This document shows positions 13,730 through 44,715 of a DNA stretch of 44,715 nt, piece after piece (position 1 is the first letter of the stretch; each line of letters begins with the position of its first letter). Location of the stretch: contig NZ_PSZM01000042.1 in assembly GCF_002964975.1 (NCBI RefSeq), positions 1 through 44,715 on the forward strand, in the 5' to 3' direction. The notes under the pieces are model-generated. The model searched no databases, was not told where the DNA came from, and saw only the letters and a program-made list of their open reading frames with translations. This DNA is from Apibacter adventoris. GTDB lineage: Bacteria > Bacteroidota > Bacteroidia > Flavobacteriales > Weeksellaceae. The position numbers and the translations under genes were made by a program.

Positions 13730-14821
13730 ATGGAAAACTTTGTTGTTTCAGCAAGAAAATACAGACCTTTAGAATTTGATTCTGTTGTCGGTCAAAGTCA
13801 TATAACAGATACTTTAGAACATGCAATTGAAAATAATCAATTAGCTCAAGCTCTTCTTTTTTGTGGTCCAAGGGGAGTAGGTAAGACTACATGTGCCCGT
13901 ATTTTAGCCCGTAAGATTAATGAAAAATTTGGAGAAACAGATGAAAATGATTTTGCTTTTAATATATTTGAACTAGATGCAGCATCTAATAATTCAGTTG
14001 ATGATATAAGGAACCTTATTGATCAAGTACGTTATGCTCCTCAGGTAGGAAAATATAAAGTATATATTATAGATGAAGTTCATATGCTTTCAAATGCAGC
14101 ATTCAATGCTTTTTTGAAAACTTTGGAAGAGCCTCCGGCTCACGCAATTTTTATATTAGCCACTACTGAAAAACAAAAAATTATTCCTACAATTCTTTCT
14201 AGATGTCAAATTTATGATTTTAAAAGGATTGAAGTAAACGATATAAAAGAACACCTGAAAAAAATAGCAAACGCTGAAAAGATTAATTATGAAGAAGATG
14301 CATTGCATATCATAGCGCAAAAAGCAGATGGAGGATTACGAGATGCTCTTTCAATATTTGACAGGTTAGTAACTTTTACCCAGAAAAATCTTACCATTGC
14401 TGCCGTAACAGAAAATCTGAGTATTTTAGATTATGAATATTTTTTTAAAATAACAGATTTAGCTTTAAAAAATGATATTCCAGAGATATTATTGTTATTT
14501 AATGCAATTATTAAAAAAGGATTTGATTCTCAGGCTTTTATTTCTTCTTTAGGTAGCCATTTCAGAGATTTAATGGTTTCTCAGAATCTGCAGACTCTTA
14601 AATTATTGGATGTAGGAGAAGCGACGAAGCAAAAATATTTACTACAGGCAAAAGAATGTACACCTAATTTTTTAATTCAAGCTATTGAAATATGTCATCA
14701 GGCAGATATTGATTTTAGAAATAGTAAAAACCCTAAATTGTCTATAGAAATAGCTTTAATGCAATTGGCTTCTTTAACTGCAGATGGACATATAGTAAAT
14801 AAAAAAAAAAATTTAGAATAA
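13730..14821 (+). CDS. dnaX: DNA polymerase III subunit gamma/tau (frame-0, gamma-like product)
   Basis: A 363-residue clamp-loader ATPase (domains I-III). Walker A is GPRGVGKTT (46-54), Walker B is IIDEVHML (114-121), sensor 1 lies in LATTEKQK and the SRC arginine finger follows. The zinc-binding cysteines of E. coli DnaX are missing, a pattern I associate with flavobacterial DnaX. Frame 0 stops at 14819-14821, eight bases after an 11-A tract. The -1 frame is open from this tract to 15435 and encodes a plausible tau C-terminus, so a full-length protein of about 568 residues would arise if the tract is slipped by one base. The short product would correspond to gamma. Confidence 0.93.
   Translation: MENFVVSARKYRPLEFDSVVGQSHITDTLEHAIENNQLAQALLFCGPRGVGKTTCARILARKINEKFGETDENDFAFNIFELDAASNNSVDDIRNLIDQVRYAPQVGKYKVYIIDEVHMLSNAAFNAFLKTLEEPPAHAIFILATTEKQKIIPTILSRCQIYDFKRIEVNDIKEHLKKIANAEKINYEEDALHIIAQKADGGLRDALSIFDRLVTFTQKNLTIAAVTENLSILDYEYFFKITDLALKNDIPEILLLFNAIIKKGFDSQAFISSLGSHFRDLMVSQNLQTLKLLDVGEATKQKYLLQAKECTPNFLIQAIEICHQADIDFRNSKNPKLSIEIALMQLASLTADGHIVNKKKNLE
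14801..14811 (+). other. A11 slippery tract in dnaX (candidate slippage/frameshift site)
   Basis: Eleven consecutive A residues read AAA AAA AAA AAT in frame 0. Adding one A (or a -1 ribosomal shift on A AAA AAA) joins frame 0 to the downstream open frame; staying in frame ends at TAA 14819. Transcriptional slippage at a similar A9 tract produces gamma and tau in Thermus, and E. coli uses A AAA AAG. I see no strong downstream hairpin, so RNA-polymerase slippage fits better than a stimulated ribosomal shift. A homopolymer sequencing error is the main alternative. Confidence 0.7.
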
Positions 14822-15435
14822 TTCCTCCTCATGGTTTCAAAACGGAACTAAAAAAACAAAACTTAAACTTAACGATTGACGAGAAAAAAGTAGAGGTAGT
14901 ATATAAAGAATTACAAAAAGAAAGTAAAACGAAAGAAGAAGTAGACAGTAAAAAAGTAATTTCTCCAGTGAATCCTAAGTCCAAAAGTATATCAGTACTT
15001 TCTATTAAAGATTTTTTAAAAGCTTCAATGGAAGAAAAAGAAGAAGATTTAATTATAGATTCTTCTCAAAAAAGTAGAGATCAATTTGAAGAAAAAGATT
15101 TAAAATTATTTTGGAATCAATATTTGCAAAATCTTAAAAATAAACAACCTATATTATATAATGTTTTAAATACCACAAGTTGTCAGCTAAAAGAAAATTT
15201 CACTATTTTTTTTCAGTTTCCCTCTCACTCTTCATATGAAGAATTTGAAAGTTTGAGAGAAAATTTTTTTCAGAAATTAAAAAAACAACTAAATAACTAC
15301 TCTATTATCTTTAATTACGAAATTAAGGAAACGCAAAAGAATATTTTTCTTTCAAATAAAGATAAATATGAAAAAATGTTAAAAAATAACCCATTACTGG
15401 AAAAATTGAAAAATGATTTTAAACTTGATATTTAA
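14809..15435 (+). CDS. dnaX: dnaX tau-specific C-terminal part, -1 frame
   Basis: Read in the -1 frame from the A11 tract, this stretch is open for about 208 codons: it runs KFRIIPPHGFK... into a charged linker, then a compact region near the end (DLKLFWNQYLQNL ... ENFTIFFQFPSHSSYEEFE) that looks like the C-terminal polymerase-binding domain of Bacteroidota DnaX. There is no good internal start before 14968 (GTG at 14965 and later ATGs are weak), so independent translation is unlikely. The KKK-x-IIP transition resembles the junction that I remember from intact flavobacterial DnaX proteins, which supports one continuous gene. Confidence 0.75.
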   Translation, partial: KFRIIPPHGFKTELKKQNLNLTIDEKKVEVVYKELQKESKTKEEVDSKKVISPVNPKSKSISVLSIKDFLKASMEEKEEDLIIDSSQKSRDQFEEKDLKLFWNQYLQNLKNKQPILYNVLNTTSCQLKENFTIFFQFPSHSSYEEFESLRENFFQKLKKQLNNYSIIFNYEIKETQKNIFLSNKDKYEKMLKNNPLLEKLKNDFKLDI

Positions 15436-15514: not shown

Positions 15515-16231
15515 ATGAAGTTAAATATACTTTTTTTTATAACTTTTTTAATGTCAGCTTTTGTTTGGGGACAAAGAATAACAAAATTAAAAACAGATGA
15601 TGAGAGAGCCTCTTATGCATTAGGACTGAGTCTTGCGCAAAGTTTTAAACCACAAGGCTTAGATAAAAATATAAATTTAGACATAGTAAAACAAGCTATG
15701 CAAGATAAATTTGAAAATAAAAAATTACTTTTTCCTGAAGATTCCATACAGTCATTTTTTTCAGATTATATCCCTAGGCATATAGGAAAAATAGCTAAAT
15801 TAAATGCAAAAGAAAGCAAGAAATTTTTAGATGAAAACAAGAAAAAGTCAGGAATAAAAGTAACAAATTCAGGCTTACAGTATATGGTTGAAAAAGAAGG
15901 AACAGGAGCTAAACCTACGGATAATGACTTTGTAAGTGTAAACTATGTTCTTAAAACTATAGATGGTTATGTAATAGAAGCTTCTAAACAAAATACAAAT
16001 AATAAACCGGTAGAAATTTCATTATTAACGATAGTACCCGGATGGAAAGAAGGAATAAAATTAATGTCAAAAGGGGCTAAATATATTTTATATGTACCTT
16101 CAGATTTAGCTTATGGAGAAAATGGTCCTGCAGGTCCTAATCAAGCATTAATATTTGAAGTAGAATTAGTTGATTTTAAACCTATACCTGAAAATGAAAA
16201 AGATATAGAAGAGAGAGAATTAATTCCCTAA
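15515..16231 (+). CDS. Exported FKBP-type peptidyl-prolyl isomerase, copy 1
   Basis: A 238-residue Mip/FkpA-like protein. A signal peptide ends at about FVWGQ (residue 20). The FKBP N-terminal dimerisation domain (KTDDERASYALGLSLAQSF onward) leads into the FKBP domain from SGLQYMVEKEGTG. Key FKBP positions that usually read V-F-D are changed: the sequence is GYVIEAS instead of GTVFDS, while PGWKEGIKLM and YVPSDLAYG are kept. Prolyl isomerase activity may be reduced and chaperone activity retained (inference). It is the first of three tandem paralogues, 30 bases before the next. It is much closer to copy 3 than to copy 2. Confidence 0.9.
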   Translation: MKLNILFFITFLMSAFVWGQRITKLKTDDERASYALGLSLAQSFKPQGLDKNINLDIVKQAMQDKFENKKLLFPEDSIQSFFSDYIPRHIGKIAKLNAKESKKFLDENKKKSGIKVTNSGLQYMVEKEGTGAKPTDNDFVSVNYVLKTIDGYVIEASKQNTNNKPVEISLLTIVPGWKEGIKLMSKGAKYILYVPSDLAYGENGPAGPNQALIFEVELVDFKPIPENEKDIEERELIP

Positions 16232-16261
16232 TAATACGATAAATAATTAAAAAAATAATAA

Positions 16262-16996
16262 ATGAAAAAAAGAATTATAGTCATTGCTTTATGTGTGTTT
16301 TCATTACCAGCATTAGCACAGAGAGTAACAGAGCTTAAAACAGACAAAGAAAAATTATCTTATTCTTTAGGTGTGAATATAGCCCAAAATCTTAAACAAC
16401 AAAATATGGATAAAGATTTGGATGTGAAAATTTTTAATCAGGCGATGAATGATGTATTAAGTGGAACTAAGTTAGTATTCTCAGAAGATTCTATTAGTAA
16501 ATTTATGAATAGATATATAAGTATTAAGAGAGAAGAGTATACTAAAAAAATTAAAGAATTAGGTGAAAAAAATAAGGTTATTGGACAAAAATTTTTAGAA
16601 GATAATAAGAAAAAAAAGGGAGTTATTACTACAGCTTCTGGATTGCAATATGAAATATTGACTAAAGGAAAATCTGTTGGAACTCCTAAACCTGAAGATA
16701 TCGTTAAAGTAAAATATGAAGGTAGGCTTATAGATGGAACTGTTTTTGATTCTACACAAAACAATAATAATGGAGAAGCTATTGAATTTCCTCTAAATCG
16801 TGTAATAAAAGGATGGACAGAAGGCGTAGGTTTAATGACCAAAGGCTCAAAATATAGATTTTTTGTTCCTTCAGATTTAGCTTATGGAGAAAGAGAAGCA
16901 GGAACTAAAATAGAGCCTAATTCTGTTTTAATTTTTGATATTGAATTAATTGATTTTAAAGCAGCTCCTAAAGATGATGCATCAGAAGCTAAATAA
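16262..16996 (+). CDS. Exported FKBP-type peptidyl-prolyl isomerase, copy 2
   Basis: A 244-residue Mip/FkpA-like isomerase with a signal peptide ending near ALAQ (residue 20). The N-terminal dimerisation domain (KTDKEKLSYSLGVNIAQNL) is followed by a long charged helix and an FKBP domain with canonical catalytic residues: LIDGTVFDST (Phe and Asp present), VIKGWTEGVGLM, and FFVPSDLAYGERE. It is therefore the copy most likely to be a fully active prolyl isomerase in the periplasm. It sits between copies 1 and 3, with 30- and 28-base gaps, so the three form an operon. Confidence 0.92.
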   Translation: MKKRIIVIALCVFSLPALAQRVTELKTDKEKLSYSLGVNIAQNLKQQNMDKDLDVKIFNQAMNDVLSGTKLVFSEDSISKFMNRYISIKREEYTKKIKELGEKNKVIGQKFLEDNKKKKGVITTASGLQYEILTKGKSVGTPKPEDIVKVKYEGRLIDGTVFDSTQNNNNGEAIEFPLNRVIKGWTEGVGLMTKGSKYRFFVPSDLAYGEREAGTKIEPNSVLIFDIELIDFKAAPKDDASEAK

Positions 16997-17024
16997 AAAA
17001 TAATAATATAAAGAGTTTAATATA

Positions 17025-17804
17025 ATGATTAAAAAAACTATTTTAGTACTATTTACAGGAATATTACTTGTATCATGTAATAAAGAAAAGAAAGTAACAA
17101 CTTTAAAAACAGATGATGAGAAAGCCTCTTATGCAATAGGGTTGAGCCTTGCACAAAGTTTTAAACCACAAGGCTTAGATAAAGATATAAATTTAGACAT
17201 AGTAAAACAAGCTATGCAAGATAAATTTGAAAATAAAAAATTACTCTTTCCTGAAGATTCTATACAGTCATTTATGACAGCTTATATTCCTAAGCACTTA
17301 GAAAAGACAGCTAAAAGAAATACAGAAGAAAGCAAGAAGTTTTTAGATGAAAACAAGAAAAAATCAGGAATAAAAGTGACGAATTCAGGCTTACAGTATA
17401 AGGTTGAAAAAGAAGGAACAGGAGCTAAACCTACAGATGATGATTTAGTAAGTGTAAACTATGTTCTTAAAACTATTGATGGTACTGTAATTGAGGATTC
17501 TAAAAAAGCAACAGGCAATAAACCGGCAGATATACCTTTATCAAGAGTAGTACCCGGATGGAAAGAAGGAGTAAAATTAATGTCAAAAGGAGCTAAATAT
17601 ATTTTATATGTACCTTCAGATTTAGCTTATGGAGAAAATGGTCCTGCAGGTCCTAATCAAGCACTAATATTTGAAATAGAATTGGTTGATTTTAAGCCTA
17701 TGCCTAAACAAGAAGCTCAGCAAGAAAATGGAGAAAAAATCACACCAGAACAAATGGAGCAATTAAAACAACAAATGCAGAAAGCACAACAAGGCCCAAA
17801 ATAA
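17025..17804 (+). CDS. FKBP-type peptidyl-prolyl isomerase lipoprotein, copy 3
   Basis: A 259-residue Mip-like protein with a lipoprotein signal (lipobox LVSC, Cys18), so it is membrane-anchored rather than soluble. Mature sequence from KTDDEKASYAIGLSLAQSF to the FKBP domain is almost the same as copy 1, including long identical nucleotide stretches. The catalytic position reads GTVIEDS, again lacking the usual Phe-Asp. A Gln-rich tail (EQMEQLKQQMQKAQQ) extends beyond the FKBP fold and is not in the other copies. An intrinsic terminator closes the operon 25 bases later. Confidence 0.91.
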   Translation: MIKKTILVLFTGILLVSCNKEKKVTTLKTDDEKASYAIGLSLAQSFKPQGLDKDINLDIVKQAMQDKFENKKLLFPEDSIQSFMTAYIPKHLEKTAKRNTEESKKFLDENKKKSGIKVTNSGLQYKVEKEGTGAKPTDDDLVSVNYVLKTIDGTVIEDSKKATGNKPADIPLSRVVPGWKEGVKLMSKGAKYILYVPSDLAYGENGPAGPNQALIFEIELVDFKPMPKQEAQQENGEKITPEQMEQLKQQMQKAQQGPK

Positions 17805-42818: not shown

Positions 42819-43595
42819 TTAATAATTAGGAACTTTTGAAGGTGAATTTTCGGTTATTTTTTCTCGTTGAATTTTATTTCTATAATATTCCTGAGCTGCA
42901 TAATATTTATCAGTAGTCATATCTAATTCAATTTTCCCCGAACGTCCGTTTATAAAAATAAATCTTTGAGGAAAATTATATCCATAGTTATAAGATTCGG
43001 GAGCTTCTTTTACTCGTGGATCGGGTAGATAATTTTTTAAAGCCTCATTATCTAGACTATAAGAAACCATATATTTAGGATAATCATAAGGGTCATCTTT
43101 ATTCCAACCTCTTACTACATCTATAAACTGGCGTTTACCAAATTCTTTTTCCAGATCTACATGATAGTCTTTCTTTATTTTATCTATTACCTGAGTATAA
43201 GTAAAAGGATAGTTTTCATCTTCACTTCTTTGCCTTATAATTTTTTTATCCTTATTATAAATCTTCCAATCGTTTAATAATAAAGAATAGAAATATATCC
43301 CACCTCCTCGATAAATTCCAATTTCTTTATCATATAACTTTACTAAATTATAAGGGCTTTTATTTTTTCGAACATTTATTTGGTAATAATCAGATCGCCA
43401 TATTAGTTCAACCTTTGTACTGTCTTCTAAATATGTAATTCCTCCGTTTATATCCTCATTTTTCTCAAACCATTGAATATCGAGTTTTTGTAGGGTGTCT
43501 ACAGTGGGAATTAAGGAAACATCTTGTGCATAGGTAAGCAGGCAACCAAGAAAGAATAGGGGATAAATGAAAAATCGGGATATAGGTAAATACAT
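42819..43595 (-). CDS. Secreted 258-residue paralogue, array copy 1 (last in transcription order)
   Basis: A 258-residue protein with a signal peptide (MYLPISRFFIYPLFFLGCLL then TYAQ). The LGC at 15-17 could also be a lipobox, but the AQ site after TYA favours signal peptidase I. I recognise no domain. Conserved features shared with the next copy are PFTYTQVIDKIKK, LEKEFGKR, a RGWNK/RGWDK-PYDYP segment, LPDPRV and the tail IQREKITENSPSKVPNY. It is one base from its upstream neighbour, which indicates a polycistronic array. The middle of the protein differs from copy 2 while both ends are almost identical, a pattern of gene conversion or of diversifying selection. Confidence 0.78.
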   Translation of the reverse strand: MYLPISRFFIYPLFFLGCLLTYAQDVSLIPTVDTLQKLDIQWFEKNEDINGGITYLEDSTKVELIWRSDYYQINVRKNKSPYNLVKLYDKEIGIYRGGGIYFYSLLLNDWKIYNKDKKIIRQRSEDENYPFTYTQVIDKIKKDYHVDLEKEFGKRQFIDVVRGWNKDDPYDYPKYMVSYSLDNEALKNYLPDPRVKEAPESYNYGYNFPQRFIFINGRSGKIELDMTTDKYYAAQEYYRNKIQREKITENSPSKVPNY

Positions 43596-43596
43596 T

Positions 43597-44373
43597 TTAG
43601 TAGTTAGGAACTTTAGAAGGTGAATTTTCGGTTATTTTTTCACGTTGAATTTTATTTTTATAATATTCTGCAATCGCATAATATTCATCAGAAGCCATAT
43701 CCAGTTCGGTTTTTCCTGTTCTGCCATCAATAAAAATATATCTTCGGGGCGTATTATAATAATAATTGTTAACAGGAAGAGAACCTCCCACGCGAGGGTC
43801 CGGGTGGTAATTTTTGAGTTCTTCGGGAGTTAGAGTATAAACAACTACATAGGCAGGATAATCATAAGGATTTTTTTTATCCCAACCTCTGCGTACATCG
43901 ATATATTCCCTTTTACCAAATTCTTTTTCCAGATCTATATGATACTCTTTCTTTATTTTATCTATTACCTGAGTATAAGTAAAAGGGTAATCTTGGTCAT
44001 AGTTTTGATTGTTTATTAATTCATTATTTATATCATAATCTTTCCAATTACCTATTCTACAAGAATAAAAATATATACCCCCCCCTTGATAAATACCAAT
44101 TTTTTTATCATAAAATTTCATTAATTTATAAGGACTATTTTTTTTACTTATATCTTCTCTATAAAAATCAGGTTGCCATATTAATTTAATCTTAGTACTG
44201 TCTTCTAAATAAACTACTCCATTATTTTGGCTTCTGTTCTCCTTAAACCATTGAATATCGAGTTTTTGTAGGGTGTCTACAGTGGGAATTAAAGAAACAT
44301 CTTGTGCATAGGTAAGCAGACAACCAAGAAAGAATAAGGAATAAATGAAAAATCGGGATATAGGTAAATACAT
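43597..44373 (-). CDS. Secreted 258-residue paralogue, array copy 2
   Basis: A 258-residue homologue of the gene at 42819 with nearly the same signal peptide and an identical last 17 residues. It has the same PFTYTQVIDKIKK and DYP motifs and a distinct NNYYYNTPRRYIFIDGRTG segment. Its last 341 bases (43597-43937) are repeated exactly in the truncated copy 3. Spacing to both neighbours is one base between stop and start. The family is unknown; tandem secreted paralogues of this kind can be immunity or surface-binding proteins, but nothing here proves either. Confidence 0.78.
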   Translation of the reverse strand: MYLPISRFFIYSLFFLGCLLTYAQDVSLIPTVDTLQKLDIQWFKENRSQNNGVVYLEDSTKIKLIWQPDFYREDISKKNSPYKLMKFYDKKIGIYQGGGIYFYSCRIGNWKDYDINNELINNQNYDQDYPFTYTQVIDKIKKEYHIDLEKEFGKREYIDVRRGWDKKNPYDYPAYVVVYTLTPEELKNYHPDPRVGGSLPVNNYYYNTPRRYIFIDGRTGKTELDMASDEYYAIAEYYKNKIQREKITENSPSKVPNY

Positions 44374-44374
44374 T

Positions 44375-44715
44375 TTAGTAGTTAGGAACTTTAGAAGGTG
44401 AATTTTCGGTTATTTTTTCACGTTGAATTTTATTTTTATAATATTCTGCAATCGCATAATATTCATCAGAAGCCATATCCAGTTCGGTTTTTCCTGTTCT
44501 GCCATCAATAAAAATATATCTTCGGGGCGTATTATAATAATAATTGTTAACAGGAAGAGAACCTCCCACGCGAGGGTCCGGGTGGTAATTTTTGAGTTCT
44601 TCGGGAGTTAGAGTATAAACAACTACATAGGCAGGATAATCATAAGGATTTTTTTTATCCCAACCTCTGCGTACATCGATATATTCCCTTTTACCAAATT
44701 CTTTTTCCAGATCTA
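44375..44715 (-). CDS. Secreted paralogue, array copy 3 (5' end beyond window)
   Basis: The frame is open from the right window edge to the stop at 44375, giving about 112 C-terminal residues. Over these 341 bases I find no difference from 43597-43937. A start at 44569 would be an internal GTG (Val of the array sequence) and is not real; the true start lies outside the window. The exact match implies a very recent duplication of a 778-base unit. Confidence 0.8.
   Translation of the reverse strand, partial: DLEKEFGKREYIDVRRGWDKKNPYDYPAYVVVYTLTPEELKNYHPDPRVGGSLPVNNYYYNTPRRYIFIDGRTGKTELDMASDEYYAIAEYYKNKIQREKITENSPSKVPNY

Follow-up and report, generated by a model that had tools for sequence, protein, structure and literature searches.

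The window, that is, the whole stretch of 44,715 nucleotides analysed here, is contig 42 of a 2.75-Mb draft genome of the Apibacter group, a genus placed by the NCBI taxonomy in the Weeksellaceae (Flavobacteriales, Bacteroidota). It carries dnaX, an essential replication gene, interrupted by a run of 11 adenines (Table 1). Frame 0 encodes the AAA+ ATPase, lid and domain III of a DnaX protein, reads the run as three consecutive AAA codons and terminates three codons past it, with a product ending in ...NKKKNLE. The −1 frame is open from the run onward; in its tail a conserved RIIxP motif adjoins the lysines, and the C-terminal domain is conserved as well. Among the listed ORFs of at least 80 aa, the sole one in this frame having a start of its own begins with a GTG at 14968, downstream of RIIxP. 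By simple arithmetic, one A added to the tract would give a protein of 357 + 4 + 207 = 568 aa. The tract is the only A run of at least nine on the plus strand of the window. Genome-wide (2.75 Mb), A11 or longer occurs at four places (five A11 windows, with one A12) as against 383 A9 windows, and the other three places lie in no open frame above ~110 codons.

Table 1. Features of the dnaX locus, in positions of the window.
Feature	Positions	Strand	Basis or remark
dnaX frame 0, gamma-like product, 363 aa	13730..14821	+	ORF list; PF13177, PF22608, PF12169; TIGR02397
A11, candidate slippage tract	14801..14811	+	Run begins at codon position 1 of frame 0
TTTAGAATAA, holding a stop in each non-tau frame	14812..14821	+	TAG 14814-14816 (+1 frame), TAA 14819-14821 (frame 0)
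Tau tail in the −1 frame, 207 codons past the tract plus stop	14803..15435	+	NF011531 match; codon-position divergence; AlphaFold2; stop at 15433-15435

Both parts were recognizable as DnaX. The core scored 389 bits against TIGR02397 (dnaX_nterm, cut-off 250), which identifies it as a DnaX core, and E. coli-type gamma/tau chains matched the frame-0 product with an E value of 2.6e-59. The curated family NF011531 (PRK14971) matched the first part at its positions 1-372 and the tail at its positions 435-613 (E 5.8e-15 for the tail), indicating that the tail is homologous to the C-terminus of the same DnaX family; its cut-off of 685 bits was reached by neither piece alone (600 and 55 bits). An AlphaFold2 model of the tail had a mean pLDDT of 67, the C-terminal part being the confident one. 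Searched against PDB folds, this model gave no match at E ≤ 0.001 (best E 0.021), the weak matches being to DnaA domain I complexes and DciA, and the tail sequence gave no PDB match at E ≤ 1. Domain V of tau, which binds the polymerase, shares a DnaA domain I/DciA-like fold. Thus, an earlier note made from the sequence was right to describe a dnaX split at A11 into a 363-residue product with the ATPase core and a −1 frame open for more than 200 codons as a tau tail, and its estimate of about 568 residues for the joined protein was exact.

We then have to consider whether this arrangement is a peculiarity of one genome. In all nine genomes of the genus group, that of the window included, a run of A10, A11 or A12 stood at this position and split the gene in the same way. 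In every one of them frame 0 stopped three codons past the tract and the −1 frame was open for 202-215 codons; the +1 frame stopped after one codon in eight loci and after 15 codons in L013. All nine had RIIxP immediately behind the tract, L014 showing one further changed residue ahead of it. Divergence per site in the tail, read in the tau frame across the nine genomes, was 0.36, 0.26 and 0.54 at codon positions 1, 2 and 3, and mean amino-acid identity was 0.53. This pattern of substitution is that of a tail constrained as coding sequence in the tau frame. The earlier note had kept in reserve the alternative that the true genome has 12 or 9 A's and hence one continuous frame; the recurrence of the split in nine genomes answered it. 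Conservation strongly supports programmed recoding that would give gamma from frame 0 and tau from the −1 frame.

The same was seen in the family. In a tool-drawn subset of a larger group, 243 of the 246 genomes had a dnaX match (E ≤ 1e-60), and in 239 of these 243 the dnaX frame was short (360-419 codons), so that open-frame annotation truncates this essential gene in nearly all of them. Full-length dnaX was found in the other four (G159, G058, G116 and G023). Where the tract itself was examined, that is, in 71 family loci of 32 genera, it was A9-A13 without exception. Four relatives of the window's family, L057-L060, were fused in frame.

To follow the site across the phylum, 209 dnaX loci from 31 family groups were compared. 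They were a chosen and not a random sample: the best-scoring relatives, loci representing the remaining genera of the family, and dnaX genes of both short and full length from the order and the phylum, the phylum draw taking 40 of 146 matches, 36 of which had A9 or more. L157-L168, partly duplicates of G genomes, were left out of the counts. A tract of A9-A14 at the gamma/tau junction, followed by a tail of at least 100 codons, was present in 197 of the 209 loci, the window's included. Run lengths of 9, 10, 11, 12, 13 and 14 occurred in 21, 136, 34, 4, 2 and 1 loci, the run being shorter or missing in 11, and A10 was the commonest length. Alignment of the tract in related genomes, which the earlier note had named as a check, gave A10-A12 throughout the genus group and A9-A14 in nearly all the other loci compared. 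Draft assemblies may be wrong by one A in single cases, but hardly across the pattern. Three of the counted loci (L242, L245 and L255) had their run 139-158 bases past the aligned core, which makes it less sure that the site is the same. Outside the 197 fell L075 (A10), unscored since a contig end cuts the locus, L080 (A8), L182 (A7) and L082 (A6), L205, L207 and L208 without a run, L239 and L240 (300-kb genomes) without a run there and with the frame ending at the core, and L241, L243 and L244 (600-kb genomes) with 6-8 A's.

Some of these deserve a separate word. L080 and L082, of family f7, have a split dnaX with tau in the −1 frame, and their mechanism may differ. In L239 and L240 (f16 g48, ~300-kb genomes), dnaX stops two codons past the aligned core (343 and 346 codons), and these symbiont-sized genomes apparently make gamma only. 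In L241-L248 (f16 g53, ~600-kb genomes), the longest nearby runs are of 6-11 A's and the tails are in frame 0 or +1; the site looks as if it were decaying or drifting, with a single-A difference between L246 and L248.

The position of the tract was constant, but the phase in which it left tau was not. Among the 197 loci, 108 had tau in the −1 frame, 83 had it in frame 0 and 6 in the +1 frame. The +1 phase was rare (four genera), and two of its loci, L069 and L130, were alike around the site and came from two separate genomes. On a FastTree phylogeny of the DnaX core, the fewest phase changes numbered 27, a figure that tree errors can inflate; independently of any tree, 11 of the 31 genera having at least two scored loci contained more than one phase. 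Three comparisons between loci with like flanks isolated a single A: L058 (A11, frame 0) against L260 and L261 (A10, −1), L246 (A11, +1) against L248 (A10, frame 0), and L073 (A11, +1) against L137 (A10, frame 0). L058, L246 and L248 are from single-contig assemblies. Relatives that differ by one A at one site amount to a natural test between transcriptional and ribosomal recoding. A rule put forward with the GeneTack survey (PMC3711429, in the excerpt available) takes a conserved shift direction as a sign of ribosomal, and an unconserved one as a sign of transcriptional, recoding. The dnaX cluster of that survey had one direction; the direction found here among dnaX orthologues is unconserved, which by this rule points to transcriptional realignment.

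The best-placed alternative, although we hold it to be unlikely, is that tau is made by programmed −1 ribosomal frameshifting at A_AAA_AAA, the tract being long only through lysines that flank the heptamer. E. coli dnaX itself uses A_AAA_AAG (PMC3711429, excerpt), and the partial text of PMC5009743 reports that a few bacteria have a reversed dnaX arrangement and that one candidate carries potential E. coli-like stimulators. A slip site is at hand too: besides the three AAA codons of the window, at least two AAA codons stand in the upstream frame of all 197 genes (mostly two or three full ones), and of the 114 genes whose tau lies outside frame 0, 108 need a −1 shift. Against this stand the 6 loci in which the same tract would need the opposite shift and the 83 in which none is needed.

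A second line of evidence came from the stops behind the tract. Ribosomes that shift by −1 enter just one of the wrong frames, so that the other would be free to stay open. As a null we took the positions after other runs of at least four A's in the same genes, which replaced a looser one made of all tail positions; the two agreed in direction wherever tau was in −1 or 0. Genes that have tau in frame 0 stopped in the +1 frame at a median of 4.5 codons versus 8.5 at the null positions, and 54 of 63 genera fell below the midpoint (p 1.3e-8). Where tau was in −1, it was the third frame that stopped early, at a median of 4 versus 8.75 codons (41/53 genera, p 2.4e-6); both p values overstate the significance, as genera are related. 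Hence the frame that −1 shifting never enters also stops early. The three scored genera of the +1 phase had an early stop in one of their wrong frames and not in the other (mean percentiles 0.089 and 0.469).

E. coli-type stimulators, namely a downstream stem-loop and an upstream Shine-Dalgarno (SD) sequence, were found neither at the window's site nor as a general signal across genera. The window's tract had no clear downstream stem-loop (z ~ −1.1), in keeping with what the earlier note had seen, and no SD-like motif upstream. There was little excess of downstream structure: mean z was −0.43 with tau in −1 (n=55) and −0.51 with tau in frame 0 (n=66) versus −0.20 in 125 control windows, z below −2 being reached by 6/55, 4/66 and 5/125, respectively. 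The four +1 loci had a mean z of −0.23. Two of the nine genus-group loci stood out, with z of −2.5 and −3.5. Upstream of the tract, an SD-like motif occurred in 1 of the 55 genera of the −1 phase, versus 20 of 1000 control windows.

The family itself also speaks against programmed −1 ribosomal shifting. As far as the accessible part of PMC8710568 goes, the anti-SD is sequestered in Bacteroidia and altered in Weeksellaceae, and prfB frameshifting, which depends on rRNA (SD) pairing, occurs in 523 of 726 Bacteroidia genomes, outside Weeksellaceae, and in none of the Weeksellaceae analysed there. Since prfB shifting is common in Bacteroidia at large, ribosomal dnaX shifting is possible in other lineages. 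SD-like motifs were in excess in genera with tau in frame 0 (8/66, versus the same 20/1000 controls), and an E. coli-like ribosomal mode possibly operates in some of these frame-0 lineages.

A tract kept in three phases, early stops in both wrong frames where tau is in −1 or 0 and the lack of a general stimulator together favour RNA-polymerase slippage. On these comparative grounds we regard it as highly likely that slippage at the A11 tract yields both gamma and tau, whatever the template phase, and the preference of the earlier note for RNA-polymerase slippage over ribosomal shifting gained support from the frame-indifference seen across relatives. In the proposed mechanism, the all-A-T RNA-DNA hybrid would slip during transcription of A11 and produce a pool of mRNAs with varied run lengths. 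Those with the templated 11 A's, or with any other length out of the tau phase, would reach a stop only a few codons later, producing gamma (363 aa); those with one A more or two fewer would join the core to the tail and give tau (~568 aa). Since such a pool would contain all three phases, the template phase would hardly matter, and relatives could hold ~10 A's in any frame. We infer the slippage, its ratio and the entry of both proteins into the clamp loader.

From this we propose that dnaX of Bacteroidota is probably a frame-indifferent poly-A cassette, made of ~10 A's and stops in both wrong frames, whose phase drifts among the three frames, within genera too, as RNA polymerase resets the frame in every round of transcription; gamma and tau would have been kept in this way through much of the phylum. 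If so, a single-base indel at the tract would be near-neutral, though normally ruinous in an essential gene. Likewise, should slippage prove to be the mechanism, dnaX would show that an essential gene tolerates a DNA sequence that does not define its reading frame, and that producing gamma together with tau was worth maintaining for a long evolutionary time.

A translational scheme can be frame-indifferent as well: ribosomes might slide on the poly-A of a uniform mRNA and exit in all three frames. Such sliding is described for E. coli ribosomes on consecutive AAA codons and is robust at A11 (PMC4363877, from its available portion). We nonetheless judge it very unlikely here, as in the same source the yield was low with nine or ten A's, and 136 of the 209 loci compared have A10. 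Moreover, what stayed constant was the nucleotide run and not the number of AAA codons: the median run was 10 whether its first A stood at codon position 1, 2 or 3, while the number of full AAA codons varied.

It could still be asked whether the run was a mere by-product of AAA-rich lysine codons. Outside the tract, the mean AAA fraction of lysine codons in the 197 genes was 0.733, and at this usage ~0.446 of loci should have three consecutive AAA codons. The rest of the same genes (335,797 bases) held 24 runs of at least nine A's and 2 of at least ten. In GC-rich genes three AAA in a row are expected almost never, and two such genes still carried A10, namely L198 (dnaX stretch 66% GC, 12% AAA among lysine codons) and L200 (65% GC, 9% AAA). 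The by-product explanation was rejected on account of these GC-rich dnaX. A constant run across codon registers and its retention in GC-rich genes indicate that the nucleotide run is what is kept.

Certain points do weigh against RNA-polymerase slippage. A ribosomal slip site is present alongside the tract in all 197 genes, E. coli ribosomes can slide in vitro on a run of the window's own length, A11 (PMC4363877, available portion), and two split relatives, L080 and L082, have only A8 and A6.

Gene fission, with the tail translated separately and no fusion made, is hardly credible: the GTG at 14968 could open a 155-aa ORF, but the conserved RIIxP adjoins the tract upstream of that GTG, tract length is conserved, and L057-L060 of the window's family are in-frame fusions. 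An assembly error or gene decay is just as improbable and was rejected, for homopolymers are error-prone in sequencing but the split recurs in 9/9 genus-group genomes, two of them single-contig assemblies (G003, G004), with a tail that diverges as coding sequence in the tau frame.

Several known systems resemble the present one in part. Split dnaX genes with ten A's have been known since 2013: as given in the available part of PMC3711429, the GeneTack survey listed 17 two-ORF dnaX genes from 12 genera, all of the −1 type, and named Chloroherpeton and two Chlorobium species among them; 12 of the 17 had poly-A, nine of these with 10 A's, and transcriptional realignment was suggested. Like the window's gene, these need a −1 shift for tau and have poly-A at the junction; unlike that −1-only cluster, the loci compared here show three phases, mixed genera and early wrong-frame stops. 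Frame-indifference at the dnaX tract is undescribed as far as the literature was searched; the search, mainly of open-access text and so weak evidence of absence, returned nothing on phase drift at the dnaX site or on Bacteroidota-wide dnaX slippage.

In Thermus thermophilus (Larsen et al. 2000, as described in PMC1088944, excerpt), as proposed here, RNA-polymerase slippage on poly-A gives gamma and tau, and wrong-frame stops lie nearby. Its tract is A9 with tau in frame 0, whereas the window has A11 with gamma in frame 0; the Thermus-like phase was that of 83 of the 197 scored relatives. E. coli shares the gene, the two products and lysine codons at the site, but makes gamma by a −1 shift at A_AAA_AAG with SD-like and hairpin stimulators (PMC3711429, in part), none of which was general here. 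In Blochmannia and Buchnera, too, homopolymer frameshifts are tolerated via transcriptional slippage, and Blochmannia dnaX is a proposed case; there, however, AT bias is involved, several genes are affected and the dnaX frameshift is downstream of the gamma site (PMC3017870, partial text), whereas here one site is retained even in GC-rich dnaX. The analogy with AT-rich endosymbionts, which the earlier note had drawn, therefore did not hold as a cause, since relatives with a GC-rich dnaX, such as L198, retain the tract.

Two other features of the window may be mentioned. Directly 3' of dnaX, three FKBP-type peptidyl-prolyl isomerase genes follow in a row (15515-17804, plus strand), copies 1 and 3 being 76% identical and copy 2 44-46% identical to both. 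At the other end, on the minus strand (42819-44713), lie tandem paralogous ORFs of 258 aa with 177 of 258 residues identical and no Pfam match at E ≤ 1e-5. The contig end holds part of a third copy that agrees with the second at 112 of 112 residues, and the contig may thus break off within a tandem repeat.
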